Source: Candidatus Nitrosocosmicus franklandus
GTDB taxonomy: Archaea > Thermoproteota > Nitrososphaeria > Nitrososphaerales > Nitrososphaeraceae
Length of the DNA stretch: 64,000 nt
NCBI RefSeq assembly: GCF_900696045.1
Contig: NZ_LR216287.1
Location: 2,523,854-2,587,853 of the forward strand
Direction: 5' to 3'
Position numbers and translations under genes: made by a program. Below, in pieces: positions 20,131 to 41,159 of this stretch (position 1 is its first letter; every line of letters begins with the position of its first letter). The notes beneath the pieces were generated by a model that did not search any database, was not told the DNA's origin, and saw only the letters and a list, made by a program, of their open reading frames with translations.

Positions 20131-20502
20131 CTAATCTTCGATCTTGTTACCATTTGTTTTTATCCTTGATATTTCAGGGATCATCCATATGAATTTTGTG
20201 TGTATACAGTTATTACTCTGATCAGCCTCGCATTGGAGTTCTCCATTCACGTAAAATACATCAACTAGGACTTTCTTCTTTACATCCTTTAGCGTAATTC
20301 TGTTGCCTTCGTAAGAATCAACCGAAAGGGATGGAGCTACTCTCGATAGAAATTCTTCTTTCTCAATGTATACTTTAAGGAAATCGTTAACATACTCTTT
20401 GATATTGAGTCTCTTTTGAATCGCTCGTTTTTTCAATTTTTCATAATTTTCTAAGAAAATCTCTACGGTAACAACACTTCTACCCCCTCTCTTCACAGGC
20501 AT
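20131..20502 (-). CDS. RHH-type regulator with SWIM-like zinc motif, paralogue 1
   Basis: 123 residues. The N-terminus (SVVTVEIFLENYEKLKKRAIQKRLNIKEYVNDFLKVYIEKEEFLSRVAPSLS) has the strand-helix-helix look of a ribbon-helix-helix DNA-binding domain. The C-terminal half (ITLKDVKKKVLVDVFYVNGELQCEADQSNNCIHTKFIWMIPEI) resembles a SWIM-type zinc site with Cys...Cys-x-His; one cysteine is replaced by Asp. The gene at 40692 has the same architecture with all cysteines. Perfect TAACATGTTA palindromes lie at 20511-20520, directly upstream of the start, and 20583-20592, suggesting autoregulation. Function beyond that unknown. Confidence 0.7.
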   Translation of the reverse strand: MPVKRGGRSVVTVEIFLENYEKLKKRAIQKRLNIKEYVNDFLKVYIEKEEFLSRVAPSLSVDSYEGNRITLKDVKKKVLVDVFYVNGELQCEADQSNNCIHTKFIWMIPEISRIKTNGNKIED

Positions 20503-20510
20503 ACATTTAC

Positions 20511-20520
20511 TAACATGTTA
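20511..20520. promoter_or_regulatory. Palindrome TAACATGTTA, candidate operator copy 1
   Basis: Perfect 10-bp palindrome beginning 9 bp upstream of the RHH gene's ATG (20502, reverse strand), in the expected transcription start region. A related half-site TTAATATGTT follows at about 20527. The same palindrome recurs at 20583. The TATA-like stretch for the gene (ATAAATATATACTTAAATAC) lies between the two copies. Confidence 0.55.
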
Positions 20521-20582
20521 TTTTGTTTAATATGTTTTCTCGAAATTTCTATAAATATATACTTAAATACTGGAGTATGCGA

Positions 20583-20592
20583 TAACATGTTA
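20583..20592. promoter_or_regulatory. Palindrome TAACATGTTA, candidate operator copy 2
   Basis: Second perfect copy, 63 bp from the first, again followed by a half-site (ATATGTTA, 20595-20602). Two copies of one palindrome bracketing an AT-rich promoter next to a ribbon-helix-helix gene is the layout expected for a repression loop or bipartite operator. Confidence 0.55.
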
Positions 20593-20596
20593 ATAT

Positions 20597-20944
20597 ATGT
20601 TAAGGAGGTTTAAGCTACGAATAATTTTGACGTTTAAACACATAATAACGGCAACCAAGATGATAAAATTTGTTACACGAAAGAAAATCGCTTTCGAGTC
20701 GGACCTGCTAAGCTATGTCACCAAATTTACATCCTGCTTCGCGATCGAATTATGCTCAAAGTATTATTTCAAGAAACTTAGTATACTTTTGAGGGTTAAT
20801 TTTAGAATCGCCTTGCCGGAAATAGATGCTCGAAGATTATTTAGGTGGGTAAATGCAATAATATGTAAATTTTTATTCTTGTTAATTGCCATGACAAGCA
20901 AGTTAGTATTATATCTAATAAACGTCATAGCCGGACTTTTTTAA
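20597..20944 (+). CDS. Doubtful hydrophobic protein
   Basis: 115-codon frame starting within the candidate operator region. Content is basic and hydrophobic (..FKHIITATKMIKFVTRKK.. and a C-terminal VNAIICKFLFLLIAMTSKLVLYLINVIAGLF, one or two membrane segments). No family recognised, and amino acid composition is what random AT-rich DNA gives. An internal ATG at 20660 is an alternative start. The divergent promoter region upstream is the only support. Confidence 0.25.
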   Translation: MLRRFKLRIILTFKHIITATKMIKFVTRKKIAFESDLLSYVTKFTSCFAIELCSKYYFKKLSILLRVNFRIALPEIDARRLFRWVNAIICKFLFLLIAMTSKLVLYLINVIAGLF

Positions 20945-40691: not shown

Positions 40692-41159
40692 CTAGCTAGA
40701 GATTTTCCTTGAAATTGAATTTTTTCTCCTCTTATTCCTCGTTATGTTCTTTACTTGTTGTCCATCCGCTTCAATTTCTACATCAATCGGCTTTCGTTCT
40801 AGGTTTAACTTTGCAACTCTAGGTGTGGCCATTGCAAATTGGATATGGAAACAAGCAAAGGAATTACAAAGCGAACAATGCAATTTATTTTCGCTTATGC
40901 GGACTTCAGCTGTCTTATTTTCCTTAAAGTCTTTTATATACAATGTATCCCTAGTACATCCTTCTTCTGATAGAAAGGGTGCATAATGCCTTAAGAACTC
41001 GTCTTTTTCTAATATGTCATGAAGTAGTTCGTTTACAAACCCTCCGAAATGTTCATTTACATACGGGTTTCTTTCTCTTTCTCTTCTCCATTTATTTCTT
41101 AGTTCTTTTACAATACTAACTCGCAGAGTTATCAATTCTGCCGAATTTGACCTGGGCAT
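40692..41159 (-). CDS. RHH-type regulator with SWIM-like zinc motif, paralogue 2
   Basis: 155 residues. Same architecture as the gene at 20131: an N-terminal RHH-like part (LITLRVSIVKELRNKWRRERERNPYVNEHFGGFVNELLHDILEKDEFLRHYAPFLS), then YIKDFKENKTAEVRISENKLHCSLCNSFACFHIQFAMATPRV, with Cys-x2-Cys and Cys-x-His forming a plausible zinc site akin to SWIM. The tail is basic (QQVKNITRNKRRKNSISRKI). A perfect 14-bp palindrome lies 47 bp upstream (41207-41220). Likely a metal-containing DNA-binding regulator; targets unknown. Confidence 0.7.
   Translation of the reverse strand: MPRSNSAELITLRVSIVKELRNKWRRERERNPYVNEHFGGFVNELLHDILEKDEFLRHYAPFLSEEGCTRDTLYIKDFKENKTAEVRISENKLHCSLCNSFACFHIQFAMATPRVAKLNLERKPIDVEIEADGQQVKNITRNKRRKNSISRKISS

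Follow-up and report, generated by a model that had tools for sequence, protein, structure and literature searches.

A ribbon-helix-helix protein with a probable metal knuckle, its predicted operator boxes and a likely RadA-paralogue target in Candidatus Nitrosocosmicus franklandus

To our knowledge, studies of gene-specific transcription factors in ammonia-oxidising archaea are few. The window considered here, a stretch of 64,000 nucleotides from an archaeal genome of 2.84 Mb in a single contig, contains a case in which both a regulator and its predicted operator, with a precise site, can be named from sequence alone. The gene (20131..20502, minus strand, ATG start) encodes 123 amino acids, a ribbon-helix-helix (RHH) domain followed by a CX2DX4CXH knuckle, and its promoter carries repeated palindromes. 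Does this protein control its own gene through these boxes, in which direction, and to what kind of regulator does it belong?

The preliminary description had reported two perfect palindromes, 72 bp apart and flanking the promoter, and the coordinates confirm this. The proximal copy of TAACATGTTA lies at 20511..20520 (centre at -13 from the ATG) and the distal copy at 20583..20592 (centre at -85); both are exact and conserved, and their centres are 72 bp apart. Between them sits a TATA-like element of the regulator promoter, TATTTAAGTATATAT, assigned by eye to approximately 20555..20569 on the minus strand, which reads TATTTAA or TATATAA in all congeners. Moreover, both copies belong to a longer array (minus strand TTAACATATATTAACATGTTATCGCATAC, centres 10 bp apart), of which they are the best boxes. 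A degenerate third box at 20593..20602, minus strand TAACATATAT, is centred 10 bp from the distal box and shows a conservation of 0.92 against a baseline near 0.57. The promoter alignment reveals a degenerate fourth box, minus strand GCATAC, at 20575..20580, which lies on the opposite side of the distal box from the third, at a distance of 10 bp. It adjoins or overlaps the predicted BRE and is a good ACATGT in several congeners.

Could such boxes arise by chance in AT-rich DNA? The 10-mer does occur at background frequency in the genome, with 13 sites where base composition predicts about 11, and congener genomes hold 2-15 exact sites against 1-17 for a control pattern. CATG pairs 10-11 bp apart are likewise close to chance genome-wide (60 against roughly 56 by our own estimate), the reversed control pattern giving only 25. 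Since the 10-mer is not enriched across the genome, the evidence for an operator is its local placement and its conservation, not its genome count. Locally, dinucleotide shuffling of the 120-bp promoter never produced two copies of TAACATGTTA in 20,000 trials, and under a Poisson model the genome count leads to an estimate of 1e-7 for two local copies. Chance palindromes, to which we give next to no credence, are ruled out by conservation at orthologues across genera.

This conservation is sharply placed. Orthologues of the regulator in 10 Nitrosocosmicus congeners are 85-93% identical, and in aligned promoters from 10 genomes of the genus conservation is high only at -100..-81 (the distal boxes), -70..-61 (the TATA-like element) and -30..-11 (the proximal box region). 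These segments reach about 0.8-0.9 (0.89 for -70..-61) against a baseline of about 0.57. The core palindrome AACATGTT is found upstream of all ten Nitrosocosmicus orthologues that have more than 100 bp of upstream sequence, and of six of the seven Nitrososphaera-type orthologues, whose proteins are about 35-40% identical; in the latter, there is usually a second box with its centre 10 bp from AACATGTT. The claim that these are autoregulatory operators is thus supported, because the palindrome, whose absence at orthologues the preliminary description had named as a refutation, is present there.

The wider family shows the same preference. Among 8-bp palindromes, AACATGTT ranks first in the upstream regions of 48 family members (25 against 0). 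In the same set, the segments from -200 to +20 contain 15 copies of TAACATGTTA, spread over 12 members, compared to a total of one for the 19 other palindromes made of the same half-site letters, and the downstream flanks contain no copy in 46 kb. In addition, the distances between CATG motifs upstream of 109 members peak at 10 bp (15 pairs) and 11 bp (6 pairs), while no pair at 10-11 bp occurs downstream of them. Further upstream of the regulator lies DNA that does not align with most congeners. A 115-aa open reading frame (20597-20944, plus strand) begins beside the distal box and is probably not a gene, given that its DNA cannot be aligned with most congeners.

The N-terminal half of the protein is modelled as an RHH domain. 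An AlphaFold2 model built from a 38-member alignment (pLDDT 90.9) places a strand at residues 8-10 and helices at 17-29 and 34-55, all with pLDDT above 90. The best solved-structure matches of this part are TacA, KacA, PutA, CopG and Arc (Z 6-7), for example TacA with Z 7.3 and rmsd 1.6 over 53 residues, and CopG with Z 6.4 and rmsd 1.6 over 45. The RHH domain of the preliminary description therefore holds on both the model and the structural matches. Among curated profiles, the regulator itself has no Pfam or NCBIfam match; an Arc-like repressor PHROG matches seven family members (best 7e-5), and single members match ParD (8e-4) and SeqA_N (1e-4).

Residues 3-16 (VKRGGRSVVTVEIF, codons 20455..20496, minus strand) include the modelled beta-strand of the RHH fold, which is predicted to read DNA. 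This stretch is 82% identical between Nitrosocosmicus and the operator-sharing Nitrososphaera-type orthologues, compared to 38% for the helices and 26% for the C-terminal half in the same comparison. Across these same residues, the remaining paralogues, the majority without AACATGTT, are 22% identical. To judge from these alignments, the joint conservation of the putative recognition strand and the operator is the strongest link between the regulator and the boxes. It also bears on the improbable reading in which the ACATGT boxes serve another factor, such as a family paralogue, and the regulator gene is merely a target. The genome does encode several family paralogues, and two of them (L040 and L043) have the same ACATGT boxes upstream, but strand and box are conserved jointly, and the box at a second locus, discussed below, follows the presence of the regulator orthologue.

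The regulator very probably controls its own gene, as an RHH protein sitting behind repeated sites that are conserved across two genera would suggest. The explanation that we consider probable is cooperative autoregulation, most likely repression, by dimers bound beside BRE/TATA. It would account for phased ACATGT-type boxes with 10-bp centres directly upstream of BRE/TATA, and for another box that lies past the expected start site and before the ATG. One RHH dimer would occupy each palindromic box, with cooperative binding of adjacent dimers side by side on one helix face, an arrangement that the helical phasing of the boxes fits. The bound dimers would then occlude TBP/TFB and give negative autoregulation. 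RHH autoregulators are common; MetJ, Arc and CopG bind repeated side-by-side palindromic boxes as cooperative dimers, and the met box has a period of 8 bp, compared to 10 bp in the present array. CopG and Arc resemble the regulator in their RHH fold (Z about 6), whereas the MetJ/Arc/CopG proteins differ from it in having no metal site and in the sequence and period of their boxes.

SvtR and AvtR are RHH factors of archaeal viruses that repress their own genes and are proposed to spread after nucleation at strong sites, oligomerising along the DNA toward BRE/TATA (PMC5569661). Like them, the present protein is a small archaeal RHH factor with proposed repression of its own gene; unlike it, they have no metal knuckle in their published description, and their sites are imperfect and different inverted repeats (PMC5569661). 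No specific sequence relation to either was found, AvtR reaching only E = 1.1 over the RHH part, nor was any viral relative of the regulator.

The direction of control is less certain than its existence. Sites flanking a promoter suit repression, and boxes that end just upstream of the BRE could instead recruit TBP/TFB. The same protein and boxes may thus exert positive or dual control of the regulator's promoter, which we consider unlikely, though the likeliest of the alternatives. The best-conserved boxes stop about 14 bp short of the TATA-like element on its upstream side, as recruitment by upstream dimers would have it, and AvtR activates as well as represses (PMC5569661). On the other hand, the conserved box centred at -13, past the expected start site, suits occlusion and hence the repression that we favour.

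Could the protein be the RHH antitoxin of a type II toxin-antitoxin pair? TacA-type antitoxins are its nearest folds and antitoxins typically autoregulate, but gene context argues strongly against this very improbable reading. There is no small partner ORF in the regulator's operon, where the neighbours are a 392-aa glycosyltransferase-like ORF downstream (gap of about 170 bp) and a coiled-coil ORF, and the regulator has no PADLOC match. With no adjacent toxin gene we rejected the antitoxin assignment; moreover, the C-terminus carries a conserved putative metal knuckle and not a toxin-wrapping tail.

The C-terminal half, described at first as SWIM-like, required a new name. In the model (pLDDT 85 for this half) it forms a four-stranded beta-meander with a knuckle built from C91, D94, C99 and H101 (codons within 20200..20232, minus strand), C99 and H101 falling at the start of a helix. 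Alignment shows C91, C99 and H101 to be invariant in 38 members, with D or C at position 94, and 102 of 109 family members contain the pattern CX2[CD]X3-6CXH. From these residues, the CX2DX4CXH knuckle probably binds zinc. The strict SWIM motif, CxCx(6-25)CxH, is found in none of the 109 members, and the SWIM profile PF04434 fails to match the regulator ORF at E values up to 10 while recovering a real SWIM protein of the same genome (G000:2618248, E 9e-9). The best PDB alignment of this half is weak (Z 3.6, to a metallo-beta-lactamase fragment) with no SWIM chain listed, and Foldseek returned nothing below E 0.1 for either the full model or the C-terminal half. On motif and profile, SWIM membership was therefore rejected, and 'SWIM-like' should read 'CX2[CD]X4CXH knuckle'. 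The two do share a C-x-H end at a helix start after a beta-hairpin, but the regulator has a first pair of the CxxC/D type and not CxC, and a spacer of about 4 residues and not 6-25.

A zinc ion in the knuckle might be structural, stabilising dimer-dimer contacts, or the knuckle might act as a metal or redox sensor that sets DNA affinity. NikR combines an N-terminal RHH DNA-binding domain with a metal-binding C-terminal domain, an ACT-like nickel domain, and uses widely spaced half-sites. The regulator would share this overall plan, its metal-binding part being putative, and has no Pfam or NCBIfam match to the NikR nickel domain.

Does the regulator act beyond its own promoter? The preliminary description had suggested scanning the genome for the palindrome upstream of genes. 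This yielded one further candidate target, and neither enrichment nor a broad regulon: when the 11 other exact 10-mer sites of this genome were compared with the sites of five congeners, matches besides the regulator's own promoter and the new locus fell only within coding sequence or between near-identical genomes. The candidate (G000:C1:446596-447198; L060, L179) has a TAACATGTTA site centred 19 bp upstream of its ATG and is present in 15 of 15 Nitrosocosmicus genomes. We class it on sequence similarity as a divergent RadA paralogue, because its Nitrososphaera homologues match Pfam Rad51 above the curated cut-off (E 2e-10 to 3e-9); the Nitrosocosmicus proteins themselves give weak Rad51 scores. 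Three Nitrososphaera-type RadA paralogues (L202, L201 and L199) carry an N-terminal CxxC...CxxC zinc-ribbon-like stretch before the Rad51 domain.

Upstream of this gene, AACATGTT occurs in all 11 genomes of the genus that have the regulator and in none of the four that lack it. It often forms a two-box array resembling the regulator's own, and in the other genomes its distance to the start of the reading frame is greater than in this one. The RadA-paralogue gene is thus a likely second target within the genus. The four genomes without the regulator may be one clade, so the split may reflect a single event on the species tree, at worst one concordant event. Of the Nitrososphaera-type genomes, three contain an orthologue as well as a detected RadA paralogue; a comparable array upstream is present only in G042.

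A family paralogue is encoded divergently from the RadA-paralogue gene in seven congeners (G001, G003, G004, G007, G008, G010 and G014) and in four genomes of other genera (G024, G041, G057 and G062). In the four congeners without a regulator orthologue the paralogue adjoins the RadA-paralogue gene and AACATGTT is missing there, while in eight congeners with the orthologue and no detected adjacent paralogue AACATGTT is present. By this comparison of genomes, the RadA-side box tracks the regulator and not the divergent paralogue. In several congeners a second, TTACRCWGYGTAA-like palindrome lies a few bases from the RadA-side AACATGTT (L187, L190, L186, L184, L185, L183 and L179); it was not found at the regulator's own locus and is perhaps the site of another factor.

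The regulator may belong to a large, undescribed family of ammonia-oxidising archaea. Of 300 genomes sampled from the whole phylum, 70 are matched by the family profile. Genomes of Nitrosopumilaceae have about one strong copy each, and soil relatives have up to seven. Sequence searches of Pfam, NCBIfam, PADLOC and the PDB returned no relative, PHROGs gave weak matches only, and a literature search found nothing on this RHH-knuckle family. The early suspicion of an undescribed regulator class fits this absence from the databases and, as far as could be checked, there is no earlier description of the RHH-knuckle pairing, of CATG-box arrays at 10 bp or of the RadA link. A broader proposal, which we consider possible though somewhat less likely than not, is a large, undescribed archaeal family of RHH + CX2[CD]X4CXH transcription factors in which at least one subfamily reads 10-11-bp CATG-box arrays and forms a module with the RadA paralogue. 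If true, divergent gene order and shared operators would tie the family to the RadA paralogue as the regulatory module of a recombinase-like protein. If the knuckle is a sensor of metal or redox state, this signal could be coupled to gene control through the family and, in soil lineages, could reach a RadA-type protein.

Three other members or relatives deserve a brief mention. A paralogue in the same window (40692-41159, minus strand; MPRSNSAELITLRV...) has a CxxC knuckle, and its promoter lacks the ACATGT box. All sampled Nitrosopumilaceae genomes contain a conserved member of the MPKAGFKSITV type (L049, L055, L073, L117-L120), in general a single copy. Finally, downstream of another TAACATGTTA lies an ORF (L066, G000:C1:1812100-1813300) in which the knuckle YCMTCNTDDCGHVGF is joined to a different N-terminal part.
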